From Streptomyces lavendulae subsp. lavendulae (lineage in GTDB: Bacteria > Actinomycetota > Actinomycetes > Streptomycetales > Streptomycetaceae), in assembly GCF_002803845.1 (NCBI RefSeq), contig NZ_CP024985.1, positions 248,001 to 312,000 on the forward strand: DNA of 64,000 nucleotides. The letters run 5' to 3'. The notes below the pieces were generated by a model. The model searched no databases and was not told the DNA's origin. It worked only from the letters and a program-made list of their open reading frames with translations. Positions 1,873 through 15,872 of the stretch are shown piece after piece. The stretch's first letter is position 1, and each line of letters opens with the position of its first letter. The position numbers and the translations under genes are program-made.

Positions 1873-4800
1873 TCACCCGGCAGAAATCGCTTCCTTGGCC
1901 TGGGTGCCGATGTAGTGTCCAAGCTCCCGGTAGGCGTCGAACTGGGCATGGTCGAACCACTGGTCAAAGGTGGCCTGGCGGGGGAAGGCCTTCTCCCTGA
2001 GGGCGTAACTGAGCAGCTCGTACGGCATCTCGCGGGTCAGACTGGCCTTCACGAAGACGATCGTCCCCTTCGTGTCGGCGGGCGTGCCGGGCGAGAACTC
2101 GACCGGCTCGGGGTACTCGATCGTGCCGCGCACCACGCAGCTGGCGGAGAACCGGGCGTTCAGCGCGGCCATCGGCGTCTCGGGCGGAAGCGGTCTGGCG
2201 CTGCCGGGTACCAGGTCCAGCAGGTTCTGCCCCTCCTCCTCGAAAGTGATCTTCACTCCGAGGTCTTCGTAGGCGAGCGTGACCGCCTGCGCGAGGGTGG
2301 TGGCCAGCGGTGGCGTGTCCCCCGAGGAGTCGATGACGTAGATCGTCCGGCAGCGGAGCCGGAGCGTTTCGACCAGACCGAGATTGTCGAAGTGCCCGCC
2401 GTCCGTGCACAGGAGCAAGGGAGTGGTGTCCGAGTACCAGCCCACCAGTTCCTGGAGCTGGTAGCGCAGCCGGCGTACCCGTGGCAGTCGCGGCATGATC
2501 CGGCAGGGCCCGTACTTCGCCAGTTCCGCGAGGTAGAGCGGGTTGGGGACCCAGGTGCCCAGCCGCACGTTGGAAAGGGCGAGCAGCCGCTCCATGAACA
2601 TCGTCTGAGTGCCCATCGCGGAGGCGAAGGCCGCTCCTGACACGGCGATGGCCGACTGCACGGTCAGATCGCGTCCGATCAGCGCGGGGGCCGTGTTCTG
2701 CAGGGTGTCGGTGCGGACCCAGCCCGTGTCGGGGCCGCCGCAGTAGTCGGAGGCGAAGGTGAAGGGCACGGCGGGGCGCCCGGGGGCGGTGCGGTTGCGC
2801 AGCGAAATCGCGGCCGAGGCGGCGAAGACGACCTGGGGGAAGCCCGCCACTCGCTGCGCGTAGGGGTGCAGCGGGGTCGGCTCGTGGTTGTAGTCGTACG
2901 GCAGGGCGCCCACCGAGCCGTCCTTCAACACCGCGCGCCGGACGGCGAAGGCACCCGCGAGCCGCTGTCGGTAGAAGGGGTGCAGGCTGAAGGTGGTCTG
3001 GTCGATCACGAACGCCAGCACGATCAGGGCGATGGGGATTCCGGCCTTCCACCAGATGTCCCAGCTGTCGGCGTACACGGCGGCCCAGGACATGAGGGCG
3101 AGGTAGAAGAACGCGACCAGGAGCAGCACCAGCCAGCACACCACGACCTTCATCCAGCCGGTGCCGACCTGAACGACGAGGGACGGCCCGCTCTTGCCGA
3201 ACAAGCCGGCCTTTTCCCCGTCCGGCCTCACCTCCTTCACGGTCTTGTGGACGACGGTGAACCAGGTACCGACCGCAGTCGCCACCGCCGTGAGCGCGGC
3301 GAGCGCCGACAGTCCGCTGCCGTCGTTCTGCACCACCCCCTGTTCGAGCGCCAGCCAGGCGAAGAACCAGATCACCGCCGGAAGGACGACGGCGATGAGG
3401 GCGACCACCAGGGCCATGGCCACGATCGTGTTCACGATGCTGCGCAGCCAGGCGGGGCGGGACTTCATCGTCCCCGCCCCGACGAAGGCGGCCCCCACGG
3501 ACACCAGGCCCGCCAGGCCGAACAGGGCGAGAACCGGGTGCCAGGCGTTCGGATACCACTCAAGGGACGGCAGGAACATCTGGGTGGACCCGGGACACTT
3601 CGGGACGTCCGGAACCTCACACGTCGGCGCGAACGCCTTCGCCTGCGGCATGAAGCGGCGCAGGTCGGTCAGCGGAAGGTGAGAGTAGAACACGTTCAGG
3701 AACTGGCCCGCCACGGCGAAGAGCAGCGCCAGCATGCCGAAGGAAACGGCCATGCCCCGCAGCACCGCCCCCACGGCGTGCATCCTCTCCTTGGGCGTGT
3801 CGGCCAGGTACTTGGCGTGGCGGCGGATGTGGTCCTCCTCCTGGCTGCCCGGCAAGAACGCGTCGGCGGGCTCCGCAAGACCGGGCCGCACCGAAGGGTT
3901 CCCGTCCGCGTCCCTGAGTCGGGCACCGGTCAGGGCCAGCTGAAGGGCGCCGGCCGTGTACCCACCGCCGGACACCGCCACCAGATAGTCCGCCTGGAGT
4001 AGCTGCCCGCGCAGCGCCTGGAGCGCGCCCAGGGTGATCGAGGCCGACCGGATACCGCCGCCGGAAACGCAGAAGCCAACCTCGGCAGGCTGTCGACCGG
4101 GCGGCTGGTAGGCACGCGTGCGCCAGCGGGTGGCCGTCTTGTCGGCGGGGTCCTGCGCCTGGGCCTGGTGCGGTTTTGCCGGGTCCGGGGCGGTCCACTC
4201 GGGTCGGGGCTCCCAGTCGTGGGGCGCGGCGGGCGGAAGGATCACGTCGGGGTGGCTGCGCTGGCTCTCCGTCTCGCCGGCGGGCCGATTGGTGTGGGCC
4301 ACGACGGGGCGGGGATGGTCCTCCCGGCCGCTCTGCAGGAGGGAGGGGTCCTGCACACGGCGGCAGTAGAGGGTGACGACGACCACCGCGGCCGCCGCCA
4401 CCAGCGGGATGACGAGTGCCCACTTCACCTGGGCGAAGTAGGTCGCCCACTGCAGATTCCGCTCCAGATCACGCTCCGAGGCCGTCGGCAGGACGCCGGC
4501 CCAGGGCAGTACGGGACCGTCCGGGTCGGCCTTGATCCGGTCCAGCGCCTTCCAGAGGAAGATGTTCTCCACGCAGTCCGCCGCCACCACCACAGGGGTG
4601 AGAAAGAGCGCGCGCCGGGCCCACAGGCGCGTGGACTTCCGGTAGAGGAACAGGTACCCGAGTCCGAAAGCCCCGGCGAGAGCCGCTCCGTACCCGGGAA
4701 TGAACCAGCGCCAGTCCAGCACCAGGCCGTCCTGGAAGAGCTTGGACCCGCCTGCCTCCTTCACGATGGCGCGGGCCGTATCCGCGTTCGTCGGGAACTG

Positions 4801-4959
4801 CAGCAGCAGTTCGCCATCCTGCGAGGGTCTGGCGCGGAAGGGTGGATCCGCCGCATACCAGAGGATCATGAAGAGCCCGGCGGCAAGCCCGAACAGGCAC
4901 AACCACACTGCCCAGCCCGGCACGTCTCGCAGCTTCACCCTCGCCTGAGCATTCGCCAT
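1873..4959 (-). CDS. Membrane patatin-like phospholipase
   Basis: A 1028-residue protein. Patatin hallmarks are visible: an oxyanion-type glycine-rich motif GGGIRSAS near residue 299, a nucleophile-elbow region AVSGGGYTAG near 330 (the usual GxSxG reads VSGGG here), and the catalytic Asp in DGGHFDNLG near 853. Hydrophobic segments occur at the N-terminus (about 14-36 and 80-130) and several between about 395 and 690, so the lipase domain is split by a membrane block. Patatins hydrolyse acyl esters of phospholipids and release fatty acids. The gene lies 132 bases downstream of a fatty-acid-oxygenase-type heme enzyme on the same strand, which makes a substrate-supply role attractive but unproven. 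No strong ribosome site precedes the ATG at 4959. Confidence 0.85.
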   Translation of the reverse strand: MANAQARVKLRDVPGWAVWLCLFGLAAGLFMILWYAADPPFRARPSQDGELLLQFPTNADTARAIVKEAGGSKLFQDGLVLDWRWFIPGYGAALAGAFGLGYLFLYRKSTRLWARRALFLTPVVVAADCVENIFLWKALDRIKADPDGPVLPWAGVLPTASERDLERNLQWATYFAQVKWALVIPLVAAAAVVVVTLYCRRVQDPSLLQSGREDHPRPVVAHTNRPAGETESQRSHPDVILPPAAPHDWEPRPEWTAPDPAKPHQAQAQDPADKTATRWRTRAYQPPGRQPAEVGFCVSGGGIRSASITLGALQALRGQLLQADYLVAVSGGGYTAGALQLALTGARLRDADGNPSVRPGLAEPADAFLPGSQEEDHIRRHAKYLADTPKERMHAVGAVLRGMAVSFGMLALLFAVAGQFLNVFYSHLPLTDLRRFMPQAKAFAPTCEVPDVPKCPGSTQMFLPSLEWYPNAWHPVLALFGLAGLVSVGAAFVGAGTMKSRPAWLRSIVNTIVAMALVVALIAVVLPAVIWFFAWLALEQGVVQNDGSGLSALAALTAVATAVGTWFTVVHKTVKEVRPDGEKAGLFGKSGPSLVVQVGTGWMKVVVCWLVLLLVAFFYLALMSWAAVYADSWDIWWKAGIPIALIVLAFVIDQTTFSLHPFYRQRLAGAFAVRRAVLKDGSVGALPYDYNHEPTPLHPYAQRVAGFPQVVFAASAAISLRNRTAPGRPAVPFTFASDYCGGPDTGWVRTDTLQNTAPALIGRDLTVQSAIAVSGAAFASAMGTQTMFMERLLALSNVRLGTWVPNPLYLAELAKYGPCRIMPRLPRVRRLRYQLQELVGWYSDTTPLLLCTDGGHFDNLGLVETLRLRCRTIYVIDSSGDTPPLATTLAQAVTLAYEDLGVKITFEEEGQNLLDLVPGSARPLPPETPMAALNARFSASCVVRGTIEYPEPVEFSPGTPADTKGTIVFVKASLTREMPYELLSYALREKAFPRQATFDQWFDHAQFDAYRELGHYIGTQAKEAISAG

Positions 4960-5091
4960 GCAGGCAAAGTAGTCACCTGAACACGATTCGTAATGATGCG
5001 CGCCCTACACGAGGCTGCGCAGGACCCACTCAGCGCACCCGCCTTGGCCGCGGACCCACCGTTCCCAGCCTGAAGTGTGCCTATATGGCGA

Positions 5092-6954
5092 TCACGTCAC
5101 TGGATGCAGCGTGTTCCAGGGGGTGAAGGCGTTGTCCACGGCCCGCATGGGCGAGCGCAGTTCCGGAAAATGGCGCAGCATCACGCTGGTCATGCCGTTG
5201 TTCTCGATCCAGTCCAGGCCGGCCTGCGTGTACACCTGTGGTGTGTAGTCCCTCGTCAGGAACCGGTCGCTGTTGAGCCGGCGCGAGGCCATCAGGACGA
5301 AGATCCGGAAGGCCGTGTCGCTGAAGGCGAAGCCCTTGGGCCGGGGCTCTGCGTACATTCCCACCATCAGGTCGACACCTTCGATGTCGTCGTCGTAGAT
5401 CCGGCGCATCTCCTCGGCCCAGACCGGGTTGTCCGTCAGTGTGGCGAAGTCGGCAGCGGGCTCCAGGTGGAGCCGGCGCCGGAACTCGTTGTACCTGGGC
5501 ACGCCCATCTCGCGGATCCGCAGCACGTCGACGGCCGCCAGGTCCATGAGTTTCTCGTCCGGACGCTGGTACTCCTGGAGGAACTTCGGGTAGTTGTGCA
5601 AGGTCACCAGGCCGGGGTGCGAGGTACCGAAGGAGTAGAACAGGTCCGGCAGGCCGTGGTTGGCGAACACCTCGTACGCGCGCCGGCCGGTCAGCTCCCT
5701 GAAATTGGTCTCCTGAAGCAGCGAGTCGTCCGCGGCCGAGCGGAAGCTCCAGTCGTCGGGCACCAGCGGATGCATGCGGTAGACCGCCACGAACTCTTCG
5801 GTGAGGGAGTAAGGGACGCCGAAGTGCTCGGTGTTGCCGCCCACGATGCCGCTGAGCAGCTCGTTCCCGCTGATCCGGCCGAGTAGCCGTTGCACTCGTT
5901 CGCCGAGCAGGCCGTACCAGTTGGCGCGCAGTGCGGTGACGGTCGTCGGGTGGCTGATGACGGCGGGGGTCCACTCCACGGTGTGGATCTTGGCGATGAG
6001 CGCGGCGTTGATCAGGCGCGCCCGCTGAAAGAACTGTTCGTCCGACCAGGCGGGGAACTCACGGCTCAGCCGGTCGCAGATGGCGTTGTGCTCCAGGGCG
6101 AACACGTGGTGCATCATCAGCAGGCCCAGCCAGAAACCCGGAGTGTTCGCGGGATCCAGCTCCGGGGCGTCCGCGAACAGCATGCCGTCGCGGGGCGCTT
6201 TGAGTTTGCCCTTCTCGCCCGAGCGCATCCGCCGTTGGGTCGCGAGGTCGCTCCCGTAGAGCTGGGAGGCGTCCCACCAGTGCGAGTTCTCGTTGATGTA
6301 CGTCGGCGGCAGGCCGTCCCCGTCTTCGGTGCGGGTGGTGTCAGGCAGGGTCCGGGGTACGAGCATCGGCTGGGTCGGCCAGGGGTCGCCGTCCTCCAGT
6401 TCGATCCGCCAGGGGTCGTCGATGGCACCCTGTCCGTGGCTGACCCAGTCGCGGATCATGAACTGGAGCCATGCGGCGACCAGGGCGTTGACGGACGTGG
6501 CCGGGATGAACTCGTCCCGGGTGAGGAGCGTACGGCTGACCTCACGCGGGCTCGGAGTGAGAATCTGCGGCTCCGGCTCGGGAAAGGTCACGTCCGGCGG
6601 GACGTTGCGGCCGAAGCGGGAGTGCGCCATGCCCATGCGCGGGTTGTCGAGGTCGTTGTAGGAGCCGTCGGCGGTGCGCTCGGTGAGGTGCCGCGCGGCC
6701 GGCGGCTCGATGTCGGGCACTCCCTGTGCGGGGTACCCGTTGGTGTCGTGCAGGTTCTTGCGGCGCAGGTTGTCGCGCAGGCCCATGAGGGTCAGCAGGC
6801 CGAGCGGCGTCGGCAGATGCTGCCAGCCGAGTTTGCGGTCGACGGCCAGCGCCACGTTGTCGTGCAGGCGTACGAACGGCGAGCAGGCGCCCTTGCCCTC
6901 GGCATGAGCCGAGGGGTGCGTGCGGGTCCGGGCATGGAAGGGGGCTTTTCGCAT
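5092..6954 (-). CDS. Animal-type heme peroxidase, alpha-dioxygenase/cyclooxygenase-like
   Basis: A 620-residue member of the An_peroxidase superfamily. The segment AAWLQFMIRDWVSHG (residues 160-174) matches the distal region of plant alpha-dioxygenases. FALEHNAICDRL (285-296) and IHTVEWTPAVI (323-333) are typical of the bacterial fatty-acid oxygenase branch. EFVAVYRMHPLVPD (387-400) aligns with the cyclooxygenase segment that carries the radical Tyr three residues before the proximal heme His: here Tyr392 and His395. That Tyr argues for fatty-acid oxygenation rather than simple peroxidation. An oddity: the position usually His in FMxHDW is Arg168; the only nearby His is 173. AGGAA precedes the ATG. 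It lies 36 bases after a small membrane gene, probably in one transcript. Confidence 0.88.
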   Translation of the reverse strand: MRKAPFHARTRTHPSAHAEGKGACSPFVRLHDNVALAVDRKLGWQHLPTPLGLLTLMGLRDNLRRKNLHDTNGYPAQGVPDIEPPAARHLTERTADGSYNDLDNPRMGMAHSRFGRNVPPDVTFPEPEPQILTPSPREVSRTLLTRDEFIPATSVNALVAAWLQFMIRDWVSHGQGAIDDPWRIELEDGDPWPTQPMLVPRTLPDTTRTEDGDGLPPTYINENSHWWDASQLYGSDLATQRRMRSGEKGKLKAPRDGMLFADAPELDPANTPGFWLGLLMMHHVFALEHNAICDRLSREFPAWSDEQFFQRARLINAALIAKIHTVEWTPAVISHPTTVTALRANWYGLLGERVQRLLGRISGNELLSGIVGGNTEHFGVPYSLTEEFVAVYRMHPLVPDDWSFRSAADDSLLQETNFRELTGRRAYEVFANHGLPDLFYSFGTSHPGLVTLHNYPKFLQEYQRPDEKLMDLAAVDVLRIREMGVPRYNEFRRRLHLEPAADFATLTDNPVWAEEMRRIYDDDIEGVDLMVGMYAEPRPKGFAFSDTAFRIFVLMASRRLNSDRFLTRDYTPQVYTQAGLDWIENNGMTSVMLRHFPELRSPMRAVDNAFTPWNTLHPVT

Positions 6955-6990
6955 CGCGGAGTTCCTTTCGGCGCCACTCGGTCGAAGGGG

Positions 6991-7377
6991 TCAACCCGTG
7001 CCCCGCCGCGGCCAATCGGCCACCAGCGTGAGGGCGACGTTCACAGTGGAGATCGCCGTCGCGGTCGCCGCCGCCCGCGGCGCGAGCATGCCGCACCGGC
7101 CGGCTGCGGCGGCCGACAATGCGTCGCTGGTGTGGATGACCGTGCCGACGTGCAAGGCCCTGGCGATCCGGGCAGGGTCCTGGAGAAACAACAGTTCGGC
7201 GCCGATGAACGCGGTCCGCACACCGAACATCCGCAGGACGTGGGAGAGGGCCGGCTGCATACCGTCCGCCCCCAGCCGGCGGGCCACCACCTGCGGGGCC
7301 AGGAGCGCCGCCACACCGTTCACCAGCCGGATTCCGGCCAGGCTGTACCGCGCAAAGGAGCGCGCGTTCATGGCCAT
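6991..7377 (-). CDS. Small integral membrane protein (DUF4267-like)
   Basis: A 128-residue protein with about four hydrophobic stretches and the pattern YSLAGIRLVNGVAALLAPQ near the N-terminus, as in small DUF4267-type membrane proteins; the family assignment is tentative. I chose the ATG at 7377 because GGAAGGGG lies at the right distance; an upstream GTG at 7389 has no such site. It is the first gene of a likely two-gene unit with the heme oxygenase-like gene (36-base gap), and a symmetric operator-like sequence lies 56 bases upstream. Confidence 0.7.
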   Translation of the reverse strand: MAMNARSFARYSLAGIRLVNGVAALLAPQVVARRLGADGMQPALSHVLRMFGVRTAFIGAELLFLQDPARIARALHVGTVIHTSDALSAAAAGRCGMLAPRAAATATAISTVNVALTLVADWPRRGTG

Positions 7378-7432
7378 TACCCCTTCCAAGGAGATATAGG
7401 GGGAATAGACGGTGTGGGAGCTCGGGCGTCCT

Positions 7433-7456
7433 ATACGATCATAGTGGGGATCGTAT
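7433..7456. promoter_or_regulatory. Operator-like inverted repeat ATACGATC-N8-GATCGTAT
   Basis: A perfect 8-bp inverted repeat with an 8-base spacer sits in the 135-base gap between the DyP gene and the small membrane/heme-oxygenase genes. It is AT-richer than its surroundings. The length (24 bp) and symmetry fit a dimeric repressor such as a TetR or MarR protein; which one is unknown and no such regulator gene is adjacent. Confidence 0.5.
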
Positions 7457-7512
7457 GTCTTCGCGCGCCGTGCGGCAGTCGTGCCGGGATCCGTGTGCCC
7501 GGGGGGTCCACG

Positions 7513-8919
7513 TCAGCCCTCGCAGAGGTAGCGCAGCGCCTGGAGGCCCGGCAGGAAGAAGTAGGCGCCGCCCCGGATGGAGACGAACTGCGGCAGGCCG
7601 CGGTAGCGGGTGCGGACGGGCACCGCTTGGACGGTGAACGTCGCATCATGGTTCTGGCGGGGCGCGACGACCGGGTCCGGACCGTCGTACAGCCCGTTGA
7701 AGTGGGCATTGTTCAGCCAGGTGTGCTGGACGAACTCGAACTGGCGGGAGATGTTCGCTCCCAAACACAGGAAGTGCAAGCCCGTCTCCCCGTCGCCGTC
7801 GGCCTCGCCGTCGCCGCCGTAGGCACGGCCGCGGCGCAGGAGCCGGTGGCGTCGGCCGATCGCGACCGACTGCGGCGAGCCGGGCTCGGGGTCCAGCGAG
7901 TCGCGGGGGTTGGCCCGGCGCACGTGGGCGCCGAGGGGGCACCTCAGGCCGTCCGGATCGGTGGCGAAGTAGCCGAAGTCGTTGTCCGAGCCGAGGCTGG
8001 GGTCGTCCCGCAACGGTGCGTGTACCAGTGGCGCGCCGCTGGGCCAGCGGCCCACCATACGTGCCCCGAGCGCCTCGCCGGCTTCGGGATCGGCGGAGCC
8101 GTCGGGGCGCCGCGTCGCCTCTTCGAGGTACCGGTGGAAGCCCGCCACGTTCTGACGGAGCTGCCGGAACACCAGGTAGCTTCCGTTGCGGCCGAAATCG
8201 GCGGCGCTGCCTGCGTCCGGCGCGCGGGGCAGCAGACCGGTGGTGTCGTACCCAGCGGGCAGCAGCGGCCGGTCGGTGAGCAGACCGTACTCGTTGGCGT
8301 AGCCGAGAACGAACTCCCCCGCCTTGACCGCGTCGTCGCCGACGGCGACCTTGGAGAGCCCCTCGACCAGGGGCTGGGAGATGCCGTCGCGGAAGCCGAA
8401 GGGTTCACGGTCGGTCAGCGGGGACGTGCCCAGACGGGCGGCCACGGTGAGCCAGCCGCCCCCGAGGGCGTCCTGGCGAACCTGCGCCTCCAGCCGGCCC
8501 AGGAGCTCTTCGTCCCGGGCGTACAACAGTGCCAGGGCGTCCACGGGCGGGCAGTCCGGACCACCCCAGTGCCAGCCGTTCGGCGCGTTCTCCCCCACGT
8601 CACCCAGCAGACGGGAGCGACTGGGGTCGGTCATGCCGGAGACGAACTCCTGTGAGAATCCGTCGAGTTCGCGGGTGTCCAGTCCGAGGCGGCGCAGACC
8701 GTCCGAGGTGAAGGCCAGGTTCAGGGCCGACTCGGGCGACTGTGCGCCGCCGTTCGTCACCAGCCGGGCCAGCCGCCCCAGTGCGGGGCGCGCGGCCGTC
8801 GGGTCCTCCACCGTGATCAGCAGGAAACAGGCCGACTTCAGGTCGTTGTAGCCGCGTATGACGAGGCCCTGGATGTCGTCCAGCTCCAAGGGCGCAGCAG
8901 TCTCCGCCATCACCGTCAC
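7513..8919 (-). CDS. DyP-type heme peroxidase
   Basis: A 468-residue dye-decolourising peroxidase. GFRDGISQP (about residues 176-184) is the GxxDG signature with the catalytic Asp, and GAHVRRANPR (about 331-340) is the conserved heme-pocket region with the distal Arg. C-terminal text such as GLHFLCLGANISRQFEFVQ and FFLPGLQALRYL is standard for the larger DyP subclass. No Tat signal is visible at the N-terminus, so a cytoplasmic or encapsulated location is possible. The start is taken at the GTG at 8919 (an ATG lies nine bases later at 8910). The preceding gene stops only nine bases upstream, so translation is probably coupled. Confidence 0.93.
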   Translation of the reverse strand: MTVMAETAAPLELDDIQGLVIRGYNDLKSACFLLITVEDPTAARPALGRLARLVTNGGAQSPESALNLAFTSDGLRRLGLDTRELDGFSQEFVSGMTDPSRSRLLGDVGENAPNGWHWGGPDCPPVDALALLYARDEELLGRLEAQVRQDALGGGWLTVAARLGTSPLTDREPFGFRDGISQPLVEGLSKVAVGDDAVKAGEFVLGYANEYGLLTDRPLLPAGYDTTGLLPRAPDAGSAADFGRNGSYLVFRQLRQNVAGFHRYLEEATRRPDGSADPEAGEALGARMVGRWPSGAPLVHAPLRDDPSLGSDNDFGYFATDPDGLRCPLGAHVRRANPRDSLDPEPGSPQSVAIGRRHRLLRRGRAYGGDGEADGDGETGLHFLCLGANISRQFEFVQHTWLNNAHFNGLYDGPDPVVAPRQNHDATFTVQAVPVRTRYRGLPQFVSIRGGAYFFLPGLQALRYLCEG

Positions 8920-8928
8920 ACCCCTTCT

Positions 8929-10677
8929 CTAGAACAAGGCGAGCCAGGCCCTGGTCTCGGCCGGGCCGAGTTCCGCGAAGAGGCCCGCGCGGATGGAGGC
9001 GTTGGTTTCGAGGTTCCGGGTGGTCAGCGCGTCATACGCGGAGTACCACACCTGCGTCGGCAACTGGTGGCAGCGCAGGTAGTGCTTGAAGGCCAGTTCG
9101 TCCTCGGCGCCGTCCCACAGGAGCCACCTGGTGCGCGGATAGCCGTGGCCGTTGCTGAAGACGGCGTTGAGGCCCCAGGCGACCTTGTCGATGAAGTCGT
9201 CCATGTAGCTTTCGAGGCTGCCGTCGTAGTTGCTCGCGAAAATGACGCGCCGTTTGTCGTCCAGGAACAGCCAGCGGGCGAAGTGGATGGTCTTGACCCC
9301 GGCCAGGCTGCCCCGGTTGAAGAAGTGGCGCACGCCGTAGTCGACGGCGAACAGCACCCCGGTCAGCGTGGCCCGCCGGAACCGACCGGACTTGACGAGG
9401 CCCACCGCCGTGAACGGATTCTGCGTGGCGAAGTCCTCGCAGGCCGCCAGCCTGGCCACGTGGTCACGTGAGGGGTGCTCCTGGCTGGGGACGTCACCCC
9501 GCTCGCGCCAGCGCAGCACCACGGCCCAGACCGGCAGTGCGATCAGGATGACGGGCAGCAGCGCGAGCGCGATCAGCGGTACGCCCGCGAGGTGCACCGC
9601 CTCCCGGATCTGCCACCGCAGCGCGGGCGGGGTGGGGCCTGACCGCGCCCAGGCCAGGTCGGGGCGACCGGCGACGTACCGCTGGATGGCGGCCCGTACC
9701 TCCGCCGGATCCGCGGTGGCCTGCTCGGCGCCGCGCCGGTCCAGGAACTCCTGGATCGCCTCGCGCAGCCGGGCTTCCTGCTGGATCTGGTGCAGGCTCC
9801 GGCCGACCGTATTGACGTAGAAGGCGTCGCTGGACACGCAGTGGGCCCGCAGCCACGCAACCCGCGCGGCATCCGGTGCGCCGTCGGGTGGATAGTTGCG
9901 GCAGTGCCCGAACACCTTTCCCAGGCCGCTGCCTGCCTTGGCGACGAGGTCGGCGAGGTGCGCGTCCAGCGGTGCGTCGGCCTCGCTCATGTAGACGATG
10001 CTCGCCGGCATCGTCTGCCCGGTGTGGTCCGTCTCCTCGGGAACGAGGACCAGTCGCGCGAAGTGGACGCCCGCCATCTCGGCGAAGTGGATGAACTCGC
10101 CTCCGGCGTGGCGGCGGTTGGCCTCGGCCAATACCTCTTGCACTTCGGCCACCCGGTCCGGGGGCACGGTGGCCCGGACGGTGACGGCGATCTGCTGCGA
10201 CGCGCGTCGAGACGAAGCTGATGCGGGCGAACCAGGAGAGGACAGGGCGAAATTGAGGATCTTGCGCCGCCCCCAATAGACGATGCCGAGATGGACGCCG
10301 GGCGCGACCTCCCGGATCTCGTCGCGGATCCAATGCGCGAGGGCGGACGTCCGGGAGTAGTCCAGCACGGTGCACTCCCCGCCGTCGAGCCGGCTGGCGC
10401 CGCGATACACCTTTGCCCGTATCGCGCGCACTCCGAACGGCGTGACTTTGTTGCGCAGTTCGCCCCGGTCGGCGTCGAACACCTTGCCCTTCCACGCGAT
10501 GAGCCGCACCAGCCGGGCCACCACCGTCGACAGCGCCGCCCCACGCGCCACCAGCACGGTGCCGCGTTCATCCCCGACGGGTACCTCTCCTGGGGGGCTC
10601 GTACGGAACAACTCATCGAGAGCGGGGCGGGAAAGGGTTATCAGCCGAGCGACATCCGCCCCCTTGGCACGGCTCAT
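8929..10677 (-). CDS. Hypothetical membrane protein with two ferredoxin-like half domains
   Basis: A 582-residue protein I cannot name. It holds an internal duplication: one unit at about 194-262 (VHFARLVLVPEE ... GSGLGKVFGHCRNYP) and a second at about 464-525 (IHFARWLFLDDK ... WGLNAVFSNGHGYP). Both show the beta-strand IHFAR, a helix, and a G/N-x-VF-x-x-(G/C)xx-YP close, as in alpha+beta ferredoxin-like folds of the DyP/chlorite dismutase superfamily. Between them lies one membrane segment near 362-385 (VPLIALALLPVILIALPVW). The gene sits nine bases upstream of DyP and is likely co-translated with it, so a partner, electron donor or structural role for the peroxidase is a reasonable guess. 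Confidence 0.75.
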   Translation of the reverse strand: MSRAKGADVARLITLSRPALDELFRTSPPGEVPVGDERGTVLVARGAALSTVVARLVRLIAWKGKVFDADRGELRNKVTPFGVRAIRAKVYRGASRLDGGECTVLDYSRTSALAHWIRDEIREVAPGVHLGIVYWGRRKILNFALSSPGSPASASSRRASQQIAVTVRATVPPDRVAEVQEVLAEANRRHAGGEFIHFAEMAGVHFARLVLVPEETDHTGQTMPASIVYMSEADAPLDAHLADLVAKAGSGLGKVFGHCRNYPPDGAPDAARVAWLRAHCVSSDAFYVNTVGRSLHQIQQEARLREAIQEFLDRRGAEQATADPAEVRAAIQRYVAGRPDLAWARSGPTPPALRWQIREAVHLAGVPLIALALLPVILIALPVWAVVLRWRERGDVPSQEHPSRDHVARLAACEDFATQNPFTAVGLVKSGRFRRATLTGVLFAVDYGVRHFFNRGSLAGVKTIHFARWLFLDDKRRVIFASNYDGSLESYMDDFIDKVAWGLNAVFSNGHGYPRTRWLLWDGAEDELAFKHYLRCHQLPTQVWYSAYDALTTRNLETNASIRAGLFAELGPAETRAWLALF

Positions 10678-10721
10678 CGCACACCTCCGTGTGCCATACC
10701 ACCAGGGTGTTTCACCAGGCG

Positions 10722-11024
10722 TTACTGCTGCTCCAGGTATTCCTGCAGCCGTGCGAGCAACGCCGCGAACGCGGGGGTCATGGCGGCGTCCGACTGCTTG
10801 AGGACCGTCGATCGGCCGCCGTCCTCCACCGTTATGGTGTAGCTCATCGCGTCCCTGGCCCGGCTGGGCTGGTCCGCCACGGGCGATACGACGGCCGCCG
10901 CCACCAGCCGGGCCAGCTCCGAAGCGGCGTTCTCCGCCAGGGTGTCCGTATCCAGCACCTTGGGCGGGAGGCGGAGATTGACCGTCGCCGCCAGCCCGCC
11001 GTGTGTCGCCAGAGTCACCTTCAT
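10722..11024 (-). CDS. Emfourin-type inhibitor of M4 peptidases
   Basis: A 100-residue protein starting at the ATG at 11024 (MKVTLATHGGLAATVNLRLP). Length, the N-terminal beta-hairpin, the SYTITVEDGG segment (residues 61-70) and its place directly after a protealysin-like gene on the same strand match emfourin, the small slow-binding inhibitor encoded next to protealysin. The gap to the protease is 35 bases. It probably keeps the cytoplasmic protease inactive until needed. A longer reading to 11399 overlaps the protease gene and is rejected. Confidence 0.8.
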   Translation of the reverse strand: MKVTLATHGGLAATVNLRLPPKVLDTDTLAENAASELARLVAAAVVSPVADQPSRARDAMSYTITVEDGGRSTVLKQSDAAMTPAFAALLARLQEYLEQQ

Positions 11025-11059
11025 TGCGCGCACCCTCGTATCGGCGGCAATTCCTGGTG

Positions 11060-12277
11060 TCAGCCGGTCCCCTTCAACGCGGCCACGTCCTTGGCCAGTC
11101 TCGTCATCTGGGCGCTCAGTTCCCCGACCTGCCTGGTCAGGGCTGCGACGCCGTCCTGTCGGCTCAGGCCACCGTTCCCGTCGACGGTCCGGCTCCGCCC
11201 CCGGGCGACTCCGGCCGGGACGCCGCTGATGGGGATTTCCACCCCTTGCCACGCCGCCAGCACGGCCGACTGCTCGGCGCTGCCGACACCGAAGAGTTCC
11301 CCGGCCTTCTGGAACGTGGTGTCCGCGAAGTCCTGGAACTGGGTCTCGGAGCTGGACGCCTTCAGCGATTCGTACCAGATGGGCCCGGCACCCTCCCATG
11401 CGAATCCGCCGATGCCAACGGCCGCCAGGAAGAACGCCTTGTTCGGGATGCCCGAGTTGAAGTGCACCCCGCCGGAGTCCCCTTCCTCGGTGTCGGGAAG
11501 GTGAATGAACTTACTCATGCGGTCAGGCTGAGGGTCCTTTCCGAACAGTGCGTTGTCGTACGCGTGTCCCGGGGCCTTCATCGAACGCAGGGCGTCGGCA
11601 TCGATCCCCGGAGTCCACACGTCGGCCCCTATCAGCCAGTCCGCCTCGTCGACCGACTGCTTCAGCGACCACTGCTTCACCAGCGACCCGAAAACATCCG
11701 ACATCGACTCGTTCAGGGCCCCGGACTGGTTGTGGTACACGAGTCCGGCGGTGTGTTCGGTGACTCCGTGCGTCAACTCGTGCGCAATCACGTCGAGGGA
11801 TCTGGTGAGGTCACCCAGCATCTTTCCGTCGCCGTCGCCGAAGACCATCTGGCGGCCGTCCCAGAACGCATTGTTGAACTTCACACTGAAGTGAACGTAC
11901 CCGTCCAGGCGCATTCCGTGGCCGTCGATCGAGTCGCGCTGGAACACCTCCTTGTAGAAATCGCGTGTCAGGCCGAGTCCGCCGAACGCCCGGTTCGCGG
12001 ACTCGTCCGCGGACTCCGGTCCGTCCTCGGACCTGGCCATGACAGCGGATGCGAGGAAGCTCCCTTGGTCGCAGTCGAAGACGGTGCGCCGACCGTTGCC
12101 GGTGGCGGTTGCGGCCGGGCCGGCGAAGGACGCCCGGACCGCTCGTTCGCCCCGCAGGCGAGCGGTGGTCAGCATGGTGTCCAAGGCGGCCTGGCGCACG
12201 TCGCTGTCCTGGCTCTCCAGAAGCCTCTTCAGAAGGTGCGGGGGGATGATGCAGTTGAGTCGGGAGGTCTTGCTCAT
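11060..12277 (-). CDS. Protealysin-like M4 metallopeptidase precursor
   Basis: A 405-residue thermolysin-family zinc protease. The start at the ATG at 12277 has an AGGAGGT site and gives the short protealysin-type propeptide (SKTSRLNCIIPPHLLKRL), with the Cys-x-x-Pro-Pro feature of that group and no secretion signal. Zinc motif HELTHG (about residue 161), third ligand Glu in NESMSD (about 187) and substrate-binding His in GGVHFNSGIPNKAF (about 272) are all present, so it should be active after removal of the propeptide. It leads the co-directional set and is followed by its emfourin-like inhibitor. Confidence 0.93.
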   Translation of the reverse strand: MSKTSRLNCIIPPHLLKRLLESQDSDVRQAALDTMLTTARLRGERAVRASFAGPAATATGNGRRTVFDCDQGSFLASAVMARSEDGPESADESANRAFGGLGLTRDFYKEVFQRDSIDGHGMRLDGYVHFSVKFNNAFWDGRQMVFGDGDGKMLGDLTRSLDVIAHELTHGVTEHTAGLVYHNQSGALNESMSDVFGSLVKQWSLKQSVDEADWLIGADVWTPGIDADALRSMKAPGHAYDNALFGKDPQPDRMSKFIHLPDTEEGDSGGVHFNSGIPNKAFFLAAVGIGGFAWEGAGPIWYESLKASSSETQFQDFADTTFQKAGELFGVGSAEQSAVLAAWQGVEIPISGVPAGVARGRSRTVDGNGGLSRQDGVAALTRQVGELSAQMTRLAKDVAALKGTG

Positions 12278-13099: not shown

Positions 13100-13411
13100 G
13101 TGGTAAGCAAGTACACGAAGCGGTACTCGGTGGAGTACAAGCGGGACGCGATCGCGCTCGTCCACTCCTCCGGCAGGACTGTGACCGAGGTCGCCCGGGA
13201 GCTCGTGATCAGTTCGGAGTCCCTGCGGGGCTGGGTGAAGAAGGACCGTGCCGCCCAGGCGACGGCAGCTGGGTCGGTGCGGCCGGGGCAGCGGGGCGAC
13301 GATCGGGACGAAGAGCTGAAGCGGCTGCGCAAGCTGACGGCCGAGCAGGCCAAGGCGATCGAGATCCTGAAAAAAGCGACGGCCCTCTTCGCGAAGGAGA
13401 GCGACCGGTGA
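13100..13411 (+). CDS. IS3-family transposase OrfA
   Basis: 103 residues with an N-terminal helix-turn-helix (KRYSVEYKRDAIALVHSSGR ... VTEVARELVISSESLRGWV) and a C-terminal leucine-zipper-like helix (DEELKRLRKLTAEQAKAIEI). OrfA binds the IS ends and makes the OrfAB fusion by frameshift. The GTG at 13100 is the likely start. Its last codons overlap orfB by four bases (ATGA-type arrangement at 13408-13411). Confidence 0.85.
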   Translation: MVSKYTKRYSVEYKRDAIALVHSSGRTVTEVARELVISSESLRGWVKKDRAAQATAAGSVRPGQRGDDRDEELKRLRKLTAEQAKAIEILKKATALFAKESDR

Positions 13412-14012
13412 GCACGATATGCCGGTTCATTCACGTGGAGAAGGCAAACTGCCCCGTCACGCTGCTGTGCAAGGCCATGAAGACTGCCCGGTCCACGTAC
13501 TACGCCTGGGCGGCCGGCATCGAGGCCCGCGAGGCCAGGCGGCGGGCCGATAAGGCCCTGGCCCACGCGATCACGGTGATCCACCTCGCGTCCCGGCAGA
13601 ACTACGGCGTCCCCCGCATCACGGCTGAACTGCGACGGCAGGGCCGGAGGGGCAACCACGAGCGCGTCGCGCGGATCATGCGCGAGCACGGCATCGCCGG
13701 AAACAGCCGACGCACCGGGCGCCGCAGCCTCACCAAGGCCGACAGCAAGGCAGCCCCATCGCCGGACCTGATCGGCCGGGACTTCACCGCTGCCCGCCCC
13801 GGCGCGAAGATCGTCGGGAACATCACCTACATCCCCACCGCCGGGGGCCGGCTCTACCTCGCCTCATGGCTGGACCTGGCCACCCGCGAAGTGATCGGCT
13901 ACTCGATGGCCGACCACCACCGCGCTGACCTCGTCGTCGATGTCCTGGACATGGCCACCGCGCTGGGACGGCTGGAGCCCGGCTGCGTGATCCACAGCGA
14001 TCGCGGCTCGGA
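13408..14012 (+). pseudogene. IS3-family transposase OrfB, truncated in the catalytic core
   Basis: Shows the HTH_21 segment (NYGVPRITAELRRQG) and the first part of the DDE integrase core: the first Asp in VGNITYIPT (read as N/D variable here) and the second Asp in VIHSDRGSE at the break. After residue 201 the frame runs into unrelated sequence and stops at 14133; the last Glu of the DDE triad is missing, so it cannot be active. Confidence 0.85.
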
Positions 14013-14128
14013 AGGTGGATTCAACCGGCCGTCGCAACACCCTGACCTCGGAGGTGTGCGACGTGGCCACGGCGGACTGGAGTTTGAAGACCAGCGATGT
14101 TCCGGAGGGGCGGCGTCGGCAGTGGCGC
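14013..14128 (+). mobile_element. IS30-like 5' fragment
   Basis: Starts with GGTGGATTCAACCGGCCGTC, resembling the ends of streptomycete IS30 elements, and continues as an open frame (LTSEVCDVATADWSLKTSD, then EGRRRQWRAR) resembling a transposase N-terminus. It is cut at the GCTAGG site at 14129. Family placement is from memory of such ends and is moderate at best. Confidence 0.4.
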
Positions 14129-14134
14129 GCTAGG
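14129..14134. repeat. Target-site duplication GCTAGG, left copy
   Basis: Identical to 15192-15197 on the other side of the IS481 element. NCTAGN is the known preferred target of IS481, and six bases is the expected duplication. Confidence 0.85.
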
Positions 14135-15086
14135 TGTATTGACCCGCAGGGTTGTTTACGCGGCTGATGGGCGGGTGTCCGCCCAGGGCGGTGTGGCAGC
14201 GGTGGTGGTTGTAGGTGTGGAGGAAGTCTGCCAGGGCTGCTGTCCGCTCGTCGTTTGAGGTGTAGGGCCGCAGGTAGGCCCATTCGTCGAGCAGGGTGCG
14301 GTTGAAGCGTTCGACTTTGCCGTTGGTCTGGGGCCGGTAGGCGCGGGTGAGTTTGCCGCTCGCGCCGAGGTGGGCCAGGACGGTCTTCCAGGCCAGGCCC
14401 TTGCGGTAGGCCCAGGCGTTGTCGGTCAGGACCCGTTCGATGCGGGTGATGCCGTGGTGGTGGAAGAACGCGGCCGCGCGGGTGAGGAACCCCGCGCAGG
14501 TCGCGACCTTCTCGTCGGGGTGGATCTCGCTGTAGGCCAGGCGGGAGTGGTCGTCGACCGCGGAATGGACGTAGTCGAAGCCCATCCCGTTGCGGGTGGC
14601 ACGGCCGGCCTGCCGGCCCAGGGCCTTGTGGCCGCCGCCGTCGGGGATCCGGCCGAGCTTCTTCACATCGACATGGATCAGCTCGCCGGGCTTCTCGCGT
14701 TCGTAGCGGCGGATCAGGGTGCCGGTGGGACGGTCCATGAACGAGAGCCGGTTCAGACCGTGCCGGGTCAGGATTCGGTGGACGGTCGAGGCGGGCAGGC
14801 CAAGGACCGGGCCGATCCGGGCGGGGCCCAGCTTGCGGGCCCGCCGCAGGTCGCAGACCCTCGCTTCGACCTCGGCCGAGGTCCGGTGCGGGGTCGTGCG
14901 AGGTCGGCTGGAGCGGTCGTGCAACCCGGCCGGGCCGTTGTCCCGCCACCGGCGCACCCACTTGTGTGCGGTGGCCCGAGATATGCCCATCTCGGCGGCC
15001 ACGTGCGCGACCGGGCGGCCCGAAGCGACCCGCTCGACCAGCAGGCGCCTACCGAAGACGGTCAGCCGGGCATTACGGTGGGACAC
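14130..15086 (-). CDS. IS481-family transposase
   Basis: 318 residues from a GTG at 15086 (VSHRNARLTVFGRRLLVERV). Domains: N-terminal leucine-zipper/HTH (VAHVAAEMGISRATAHKWVR), a second HTH, then an rve integrase core. DDE residues are visible: Asp in ELIHVDVKKLG, Asp in ERVLTDNAWAY, and Glu in TNGKVERFNRTLL. It looks functional. The stop codon TAG lies in the flanking GCTAGG duplication, so the element borrows its stop from the target. A longer reading from 15161 has no support. Confidence 0.92.
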   Translation of the reverse strand: MSHRNARLTVFGRRLLVERVASGRPVAHVAAEMGISRATAHKWVRRWRDNGPAGLHDRSSRPRTTPHRTSAEVEARVCDLRRARKLGPARIGPVLGLPASTVHRILTRHGLNRLSFMDRPTGTLIRRYEREKPGELIHVDVKKLGRIPDGGGHKALGRQAGRATRNGMGFDYVHSAVDDHSRLAYSEIHPDEKVATCAGFLTRAAAFFHHHGITRIERVLTDNAWAYRKGLAWKTVLAHLGASGKLTRAYRPQTNGKVERFNRTLLDEWAYLRPYTSNDERTAALADFLHTYNHHRCHTALGGHPPISRVNNPAGQYT

Positions 15087-15191
15087 GAAGACCTCCGTTG
15101 TGCAATGGGTTCCTAGACAGCTCCCACCACACCGGAGGTCTTCGTCATGTTCAAGACCCACCGAGTGTCAACAACGCTCGTGATCAATACA
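14135..15191 (-). mobile_element. Intact IS481-family element, 1057 bp
   Basis: Both ends begin TGTATTGA when read inwards, and the inverted repeats stay similar for about 26 bases with mismatches in the middle. The element carries one transposase on - and is flanked by a perfect 6-bp GCTAGG duplication. Intact ends, an intact transposase and a perfect duplication point to a recent insertion. Confidence 0.9.
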
Positions 15192-15197
15192 GCTAGG
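15192..15197. repeat. Target-site duplication GCTAGG, right copy
   Basis: Right copy of the duplication made by the IS481-family element. Confidence 0.85.
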
Positions 15198-15645
15198 CAG
15201 TGTCTGATGGCTCCTGCCCGGGTGGTGGATCTACCGCTGTTCTGGGCAAGAAGTCGTCATGGCGCGCTCGGCATGAACTGACGAATGCTCAGTGGGATCG
15301 CATAGCCCCGTTGCTGCCGGAGACCGGTAGCCCGGGTGGTCGGTGGGCCGATCACCGGACGGTGGTCAACAGGGTGTTCTACCGGACTCGGACGGGGATT
15401 CCCTGGCGTGACCTGCCCGAACGTTACGGATCCTGGCAGACCGTTTACGAACGTCACCGCCGCTGGTCGGCCGACGGCACCTGGTCGAGGATCCTGCGGG
15501 CGTTGCAGGCCGACGCCGATGCCACCGCCCCGGACGCGGACGGCTCGTGGGCGGTGAACGTCGACTCCACCACCTGCCGGGCCCATCAGCACGCGGCCGG
15601 AGCCCGGCACGCACCCCCGGCCGACCACCCCGAAAAGGCGCCTCT
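15193..15645 (+). pseudogene. IS5-family element, left end and transposase N-terminal half
   Basis: GGCAGTGTCTGATGGCTCC following CTAG looks like an IS5 (IS427-group) end. The frame RHELTNAQWDRIAPLLP ... WRDLPERYGSWQTVYERH ... AHQHAAGAR is the DUF4096/N-terminal half of an IS5 transposase. Similarity ends near 15645 and the frame stops at 15667; the catalytic second half is absent. Confidence 0.75.
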
Positions 15646-15662
15646 ATGGCTTTCGTCAAGCT

Positions 15663-15872
15663 GTTAGAACGGGCCCTCCTCACGCCTGGCTGGAGGAGTA
15701 CAGCCGACGGGTCGGGGACGATCCCGCGCCCAGGACCCGCCTGCCCCTGCAAACCCTTGCTGTGGCCGCCCTCGCCGTCCAGGTGCACGGCTGGGAGCTC
15801 GGCGTGCGCTCCCGCTGTCTGCCCCCGCCGCTGCTGGGCGTTCCGGACGCGCGGCCGGACAGCGGCCCGGCC
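15663..15872 (+). pseudogene. C-terminal fragment of an unknown gene
   Basis: A frame with good codon bias (HAWLEEYSRRVGDDPAPRTR, then LPLQTLAVAALAVQVHGWEL) ends with TGA at 15870-15872. It has no start and begins right where the IS5 fragment ends, so it is probably the tail of a gene lost in the IS rearrangements. Function unknown. Confidence 0.35.

Follow-up and report, generated by a model that had tools for sequence, protein, structure and literature searches.

A gene set around an alpha-dioxygenase homologue in Streptomyces lavendulae recurs in actinobacteria and may act in fatty-acid alpha-oxygenation

Seven minus-strand genes lie close together in a 64,000-nucleotide stretch of the Streptomyces lavendulae subsp. 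lavendulae genome (the window; 248-312 kb of an 8.69-Mb contig, NZ_CP024985.1). In order, they encode a protealysin-like M4 protease, an emfourin-like inhibitor, a two-part protein called DUP here, a DyP-type peroxidase (DyP), a small protein (SMP), a homologue of the fatty-acid alpha-dioxygenases (alpha-DOX), and a patatin-like lipase. Judged from gene order in related genomes, the conserved unit is DUP, DyP, SMP, alpha-DOX, and often patatin, together with a catalase-related protein (CAT) that the window lacks. On balance, we lean toward reading these genes as a fatty-acid alpha-oxygenation set; the protease and its inhibitor are joined neighbors.

Conservation of the set around alpha-DOX

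We sought alpha-DOX in 295 genomes of the genus, 73 of which matched (8 of these weakly and partially). By identity to the window alpha-DOX, the matches were placed in tier A (≥74%; 11 genomes, including that of the window), tier B (58-64%; 13 genomes), tier C (∼45-51%), or tier D (∼42-46%, with open frames of ∼970-1300 residues); one extra copy (L100) is degenerate. Up to 20 kb of flanking DNA was examined for 43 of the genus loci, and intervening genes were called with a crude ad hoc gene caller. At the 13 tier A loci (the 11 plus G142 and G189), DUP and DyP adjoin alpha-DOX in 10 and CAT does so in 8. The exceptions are L069 and L075, with parts of DUP only, and L074, with neither DUP nor DyP.

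The same association appears beyond the genus. From a scan of 84,980 species with two patterns, we compared the best 80 of 152 alpha-DOX relatives, counting DyP and the C-terminal part of DUP (DUP-C) at >45% identity within ∼7 kb of alpha-DOX. Both adjoin alpha-DOX in 16 of the best 80 loci, always on the same strand, and CAT is present in 13 of these 16, including a copy broken in two in L116. SMP is found in 46 of the 80 loci and in all 16 tier A loci among them, and patatin is found in 8 of the 80, all of which belong to the 16 tier A loci, besides the window and L066. A GMC oxidoreductase occurs in 24 of the 80 (some matches being short pieces only) and an M4 gene in 1. None of the 12 tier C loci, which include this genome's second alpha-DOX, has a match to DUP, DyP, CAT, SMP, or patatin (tblastn, E = 1e-4, ∼20 kb each). 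As DUP-C and DyP recur at 16 of 80 loci, whereas none of the 12 tier C controls carries any partner, the set does not appear to be a product of chance. The seven-gene unit as a whole is not conserved elsewhere: among the loci examined, the M4-emfourin pair abuts the set only in the window and in L066.

The triad of DUP, DyP, and CAT is found in Streptomyces, Kitasatospora aureofaciens, two Amycolatopsis genomes, and one actinobacterial metagenome-assembled genome, with CAT on the opposite strand in the last. Two gene orders occur, DUP-DyP-CAT-SMP-alpha-DOX and alpha-DOX-DUP-DyP-CAT (L137 and L162); in Amycolatopsis and Streptomyces fulvoviolaceus, the triad stands behind alpha-DOX and not ahead of it. 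In a quick 98-row alpha-DOX tree (omitting L063 and L064, which are the same loci as L110 and L120, and the degenerate L100 and L105), the window falls inside an 18-row tier A clade with a Shimodaira-Hasegawa-like approximate likelihood ratio of 100. The triad occupies three separate places on this tree. DyP presence or absence changes at least nine times and that of CAT eight times, with short contigs scored as absence, which suggests frequent gain or loss of the set.

Two other neighborhoods were seen along the way. A GMC oxidoreductase gene, in some cases only in pieces, precedes the tier B alpha-DOX in L079, L080, and L082-L084, often with SMP before alpha-DOX. In tier C, the neighborhoods of L092-L099 and of L065, this genome's other alpha-DOX (C1:1507776-1509572), resemble a fatty-acid alpha-oxidation route.

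Organization of the window locus

The order and spacing of seven codirectional genes, with gaps of 9 to 135 bases, were confirmed from the open reading frames; in the order given above, the gaps are 35, 44, 9, 135, 36, and 132 bases. The features are as follows.

11060..12277, minus strand: M4 protease, protealysin-like (Peptidase_M4_C in Pfam, E = 2.5e-49; HELTH and NESMSD motifs)
10722..11024, minus strand: emfourin-like inhibitor, paired with the M4 gene (Emfourin in Pfam, PF20242, E = 1.6e-21)
8929..10677, minus strand: DUP, a fusion of DUP-N and DUP-C
7513..8919, minus strand: DyP-type peroxidase, 468 amino acids (NCBIfam DyP superfamily, E = 2.2e-32; GFRDG and HVRRANPR)
7471..7497, minus strand: CAT remnant of 27 bases, identified by identity to the 3′ coding end of the CAT gene of Streptomyces sp. 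A1136
7434..7446, minus strand: recurring element upstream of SMP, shared with near relatives
6991..7377, minus strand: SMP, a small protein kept near alpha-DOX in relatives
5092..6954, minus strand: alpha-DOX homologue (PF03098), 620 amino acids (An_peroxidase in Pfam, E = 3e-105)
1873..4959, minus strand: patatin-like lipase, 1028 amino acids (Patatin in Pfam, E = 3.8e-7; several hydrophobic stretches)

No terminator-like site was found on the minus strand of the six gaps. The promoter and terminator scan did not rise above chance level. The recurring element upstream of SMP (∼ACTATCGTCGTA) is a possible promoter or operator, separate for SMP and alpha-DOX.

Several transposase families are encoded at 13100-15667, just upstream of the M4 gene. 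At the other end, two plus-strand genes (3-566 and 669-1817) converge with the patatin gene; the latter, which has no Pfam match, is also present in genome G325 (L201).

Identity and active-site residues of alpha-DOX

The window enzyme is far closer to the plant alpha-DOX than to cyclooxygenase (COX). Its best matches in a PDB sequence search are the plant alpha-DOX entries 4kvj (E = 2.6e-112) and 4hhr (E = 8.9e-110), whose assignment to rice or to Arabidopsis alpha-DOX is presumed here, while the best COX structure matches at E = 7.4e-18. Residues 35-614 of 620 align with rice alpha-DOX, and the extent is similar with the Arabidopsis enzyme. Of the two options that the original prediction had joined (alpha-dioxygenase/COX type), the former therefore stands, and a COX-type enzyme is ruled out.

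The catalytic Tyr and proximal His are kept in a YRxH motif (Y392 and H395) and do not vary among the 13 tier A sequences compared. The carboxylate-binding residues H324, T329, and R559 (rice H311, T316, and R559) are also kept. These roles (radical Tyr, pair of heme His residues, and carboxylate anchor) follow a passage of PMC8720084. At the position of the distal heme His (rice H157), the window enzyme has Arg168. Arg or Lys occupies this position in all 26 tier A and B sequences, whereas the 18 tier C and D sequences have 17 His and 1 Pro; on the tree, a single change from His to Arg/Lys suffices. These 26 and 18 sequences give the unbiased count, as one of the scan patterns behind the best 80 loci (74 Arg, 5 Lys, and 1 His) demanded Arg or Lys. 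Arg can serve compound I formation in DyP enzymes. A second conserved His, H173, is equivalent to rice H162 and could, by its aligned position, stand in for the distal His. Rice H162 is listed as lying ≤4 Å from the heme in a passage of PMC8720084, which also reports that the distal His is just partially conserved across the alpha-DOX family, so that its loss does not exclude membership in that family.

CAT: identity, loss in the window, and distal residue

In relatives, a gene of ∼380 residues lies between DyP and SMP, where the window has none. Its product has no Pfam or NCBIfam match at E = 0.1, and a single-sequence PDB search gave none at the same threshold. A profile built from 16 sequences, in turn, matches two PDB entries, 3e4w at E = 4.6e-4 and 1u5u, the coral allene oxide synthase, at E = 0.013, and a structural model (mean predicted local distance difference test score [pLDDT], 72.5) has coral allene oxide synthase 1u5u as its top Foldseek match (E = 2.6e-12). 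By profile and predicted model, CAT is a catalase-related heme protein with a fold nearest that of coral allene oxide synthase.

Just behind DyP, 26 of 27 bases of the window (7471-7497) match those that end the coding sequence of the Streptomyces sp. A1136 CAT gene (L106, 9456-9482). No CAT match at E = 0.001 was found in the whole genomes of the window strain, G325, or the strains of L107, L109, and L117. Read from this alignment, CAT is deleted in the window lineage, leaving a 3′ remnant. The five CAT-less rows share a tree clade with L106 and L118, which keep CAT; CAT was thus apparently lost more than once or regained. Elsewhere, only a 3′ piece of CAT remains before SMP in L074, and L111 and L127, which have no DyP, carry CAT only in a damaged or partial form.

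The distal position of CAT is also unusual. Close copies (≥50% identity) have a distal Asn in 20 of 20 rows, several rows being the same genome twice, in the motif RAGNTK (RGGNTK in L124). Near Arg-type tier B alpha-DOX genes, however, there are stand-alone, distant CAT-like genes with a distal His, reading RAFHAK in L152, L169, and L170 and RVFHAS in L125, and these four loci rule out a strict coupling of the two distal-His losses. Fused forms exist as well. Across the 295 genus genomes, the CAT profile has 38 matches that immediately precede an alpha-DOX match and share its open-frame length (compared by eye), and five such cases were translated as single frames of ∼990-1300 residues (L101-L105; e.g., L103, 7943-10918), which together identify tier D as CAT-alpha-DOX fusions. 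His is present at both distal positions in four of these five; the fifth, L105, is degenerate.

A CAT domain is also fused ahead of a LodA-type (lysine epsilon-oxidase) protein in L190 (5315-8296) and L191 (5227-8232), with Phe at the distal site, and L192-L194 have similar frames. One locus, L199, carries DyP and CAT only.

The M4-emfourin pair as a joined neighbor

The window has an M4 gene followed by a PF20242 emfourin gene, the arrangement of a protealysin-emfourin pair. This pair abuts the set in two loci, the window and L066, a relative of 98% identity. No M4 match lies in the flanking DNA of the 16 tier A loci among the best 80. Across the genomes of 17 relatives, an M4 gene of ≥83% identity is present in two, on the same contig in A1136 (91%) and on another contig in Streptomyces cirratus (83%); the best M4 in the other 15 has 52% identity. 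The emfourin family itself is present in 271 of the 295 genus genomes.

The A1136 pair precedes DUP at a distance of ∼6.3 kb; between them, the crude gene caller places three frames on the opposite strand and a doubtful one on the same strand. One side of the 44-base emfourin-DUP gap of the window matches the sequence following emfourin in A1136 (a short match, E = 0.046), and the other side matches A1136 sequence starting 37 bases before DUP (E = 9.6e-25). Most simply, these two matches would reflect a deletion of ∼6.25 kb in the window lineage that joined M4-emfourin to the set; an insertion in A1136 is a possible alternative. The junction may have placed DUP behind the M4-emfourin promoter. 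The suggestion that the protease and inhibitor form a control or effector arm did not survive this comparison: adjacency at two loci, with M4 distant or absent in relatives, rules out a conserved control arm.

Two further M4-emfourin pairs, with M4 identities of 76-86%, were seen near alpha-DOX and may be there by chance. One lies beside a tier B alpha-DOX on the opposite strand (L183, 5695-7168), and the other follows a tier D alpha-DOX at a distance of ∼11 kb (L187, 17133-18699).

DUP, DyP, SMP, and patatin proteins

Neither DUP nor SMP has a Pfam or NCBIfam match at E = 0.01. DUP is a fusion of DUP-N (residues ∼1-152) and DUP-C (∼157-582), the latter with two related repeats (194-331 versus 451-566; E = 6.8e-6) and a hydrophobic stretch at 359-391; in L063, L070, and L071, a stop codon splits the two parts. 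The sole clear fold match is between the N-terminal part and a structural-genomics protein (4mve; E = 4.4e-5). The earlier description of DUP as a duplicated ferredoxin-like protein is therefore right about duplication, within DUP-C, while a ferredoxin-like fold is weakly indicated and the simple duplicated protein gives way to a fusion of two.

DyP carries GFRDG at 175 and HVRRANPR at 332, presumably the GxxDG and proximal-His hallmarks of the family, and scores above the cutoff for TIGR01413; the closest solved structures are 8re3 (E = 1.7e-63) and 8re2 (E = 1.7e-62). A distant SMP homologue in L122 bears a weak resemblance to DUF4267 (E = 0.03, short of the cutoff). Patatins are marked by an oxyanion GGGxR motif, a catalytic Ser, and an Asp; the window protein has GGGIR at 300, AVSGG at 328, and DGG at 853, with Ala replacing the first Gly of GxSxG, and its Pfam score exceeds the cutoff. 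The hydrophobic stretches in both DUP and patatin suggest a membrane site for these proteins.

Proposed function and alternative explanations

In the fatty-acid alpha-oxygenation set that we favor, we infer the chemistry, the membrane roles, and co-transcription from the genes. A membrane patatin would free fatty acids, and alpha-DOX, using a Tyr392 radical with H324, T329, and R559 as the carboxylate anchor, would introduce O2 at carbon 2, forming a 2-hydroperoxy acid. DyP would either reduce this product to the 2-hydroxy acid or use it as an oxidant, and in relatives CAT would rearrange or cleave it, such that the helper present would set the balance between 2-hydroxy acid and a one-carbon-shorter aldehyde. 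DUP and SMP would be accessory and would probably tether enzymes or lipid to the membrane. The window would then be a reduced version, with CAT deleted and M4-emfourin joined in front, where a shared transcript is possible without a shared function. Passages of PMC13049297 and PMC9305512 describe alpha-DOX as making 2-hydroperoxides. In relatives, the set also includes a CAT of the allene oxide synthase fold, and enzymes of this kind act on fatty-acid hydroperoxides elsewhere. The idea of an oxygenated-fatty-acid set in the original prediction thus keeps its core, namely, conserved heme enzymes around an alpha-DOX that retains its catalytic Tyr, proximal His, and carboxylate-binding residues and that is followed by patatin in 8 of 16 close loci, and loses its protease arm.

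Several observations weigh against this reading. The flanking DNA of 64 of the best 80 loci lacks DUP-C and DyP, some of the contigs being short, and CAT is absent from 5 of 18 DyP-bearing tree rows and is hence dispensable. The structure prediction for DUP is poor (pLDDT, 63; predicted template modeling score, 0.41), and the recurring sequence before SMP may mean separate transcripts. We know of no reported activity for any alpha-DOX with a distal Arg or Lys, and such enzymes might not oxygenate. Finally, triads of a DUP-C-like protein, DyP, and CAT occur without alpha-DOX in L195-L198, where CAT has a distal His (RDAHAK), so the substrate of the triad need not be an alpha-DOX product.

These alpha-DOX-free triads, the CAT domains fused to LodA-type amine oxidases (L190 and L191), and the replaced distal His of alpha-DOX would all suit a different explanation, in which DUP, DyP, and CAT deal with peroxides or envelope stress in general, and the alpha-DOX with Arg or Lys is a heme peroxidase-like protein with no fatty-acid oxygenase activity. 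We consider this unlikely, as every Arg/Lys-type row keeps the Tyr, the proximal His, and the three carboxylate-binding residues, which would be odd for a nonoxygenase, and patatin stands behind alpha-DOX in half of the tier A loci among the best 80. Chain shortening by alpha-oxidation, with the set making one-carbon-shorter aldehydes and acids and the helpers merely removing peroxide, draws on tier C: of the 12 loci, 9 have a thiamine pyrophosphate-dependent, benzoylformate decarboxylase-like gene nearby and 5 have a GlcD-like FAD oxidase gene (counted from gene clusters, with one representative of each identified), neighbors that fit a route from 2-hydroxy acid through 2-keto acid to aldehyde. 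Neither gene type is among the seven of the window, and for the window set this explanation seems quite improbable.

A more elaborate form of the alpha-oxygenation reading is a three-heme relay that DUP and SMP would hold at the membrane. In it, an Arg/Lys alpha-DOX would work without the usual radical loading, a distal-Asn CAT would isomerize or split 2-hydroperoxides rather than reduce them, and DyP would supply or consume oxidizing equivalents. The distal changes may point to labor being newly divided in triad-linked sets, because the alpha-DOX-free triads and four of the CAT-alpha-DOX fusions keep His. The four tier B loci that combine an Arg-type alpha-DOX with a His-bearing CAT-like gene count against the relay, which we regard as a long shot. 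A functional role of the M4-emfourin pair in the oxygenation set, as effector and immunity, would agree with its abutting the set in two genomes, with the similar pairs in L183 and L187, and with the role in bacterial competition proposed for protealysin-emfourin in a passage of PMC9505478. It appears very improbable given that M4 is absent around all 16 tier A loci of the best 80, that A1136 has the pair ∼6.3 kb off and S. cirratus has it on a separate contig, and that emfourins are widespread in the genus. We give still less credence to the seven genes being chance neighbors with no common function. Chance is plausible for M4-emfourin versus the rest, given the junction, but four genes co-occur repeatedly in separate tree clades and in two orders.

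Relation to known systems

The window alpha-DOX shares with the plant and cyanobacterial enzymes (OsaDOX, AtDOX1, CalDOX, and LepDOX) full-length homology, the catalytic Tyr, the proximal His, and equivalents of H311, T316, and R559. Unlike them, it has a distal Arg (Arg or Lys in its branch) and sits with DyP, DUP, and SMP. Brash and colleagues reportedly described, in 2014, a cyanobacterial linoleate 10S-dioxygenase with a catalase-related hydroperoxide lyase. A passage on a fusion related to this cyanobacterial dioxygenase/catalase-related system is found in PMC11719350. The likeness is that a dioxygenase of the COX superfamily works with a catalase-related protein; the actinobacterial set differs in having an alpha-DOX type, a distal-Asn CAT, DyP, and DUP. 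The window itself holds no tandem of dioxygenase and catalase-related genes, with the 27-base remnant in place of CAT and no CAT elsewhere in the genome. In the coral allene oxide synthase-lipoxygenase fusion (PDB entries 1u5u and 3dy5), a catalase-related fold is likewise paired with a fatty-acid dioxygenase, but the partner is a lipoxygenase. Where the two proteins align, RAGNTK of CAT corresponds to RATHTV of the coral synthase, although this part of the alignment lacks significance on its own. As in the Serratia protealysin-emfourin operon, an M4 gene precedes its emfourin inhibitor gene in the window; unlike in Serratia, the pair is joined to an unrelated set, in two genomes.

A dioxygenase with a catalase-related partner is therefore already known from cyanobacteria, and what is new is the alpha-DOX/DyP/DUP version in actinobacteria. 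We found no description of this gene set and little on the making of oxylipins by actinobacteria in open-licence PubMed Central, judged for the gene set by titles and the starts of abstracts; subscription journals lie mostly outside that collection.

The spacing of genes alone is misleading about the protease pair, as a tidy seven-gene run can arise from two rearrangements. The relatives offer natural variants for comparison, with CAT present, deleted, or fused, or with a GMC oxidoreductase nearby instead. They also raise the biochemical question of how a distal Arg or Lys allows an alpha-DOX to work and whether the enzyme depends on a partner to do so.

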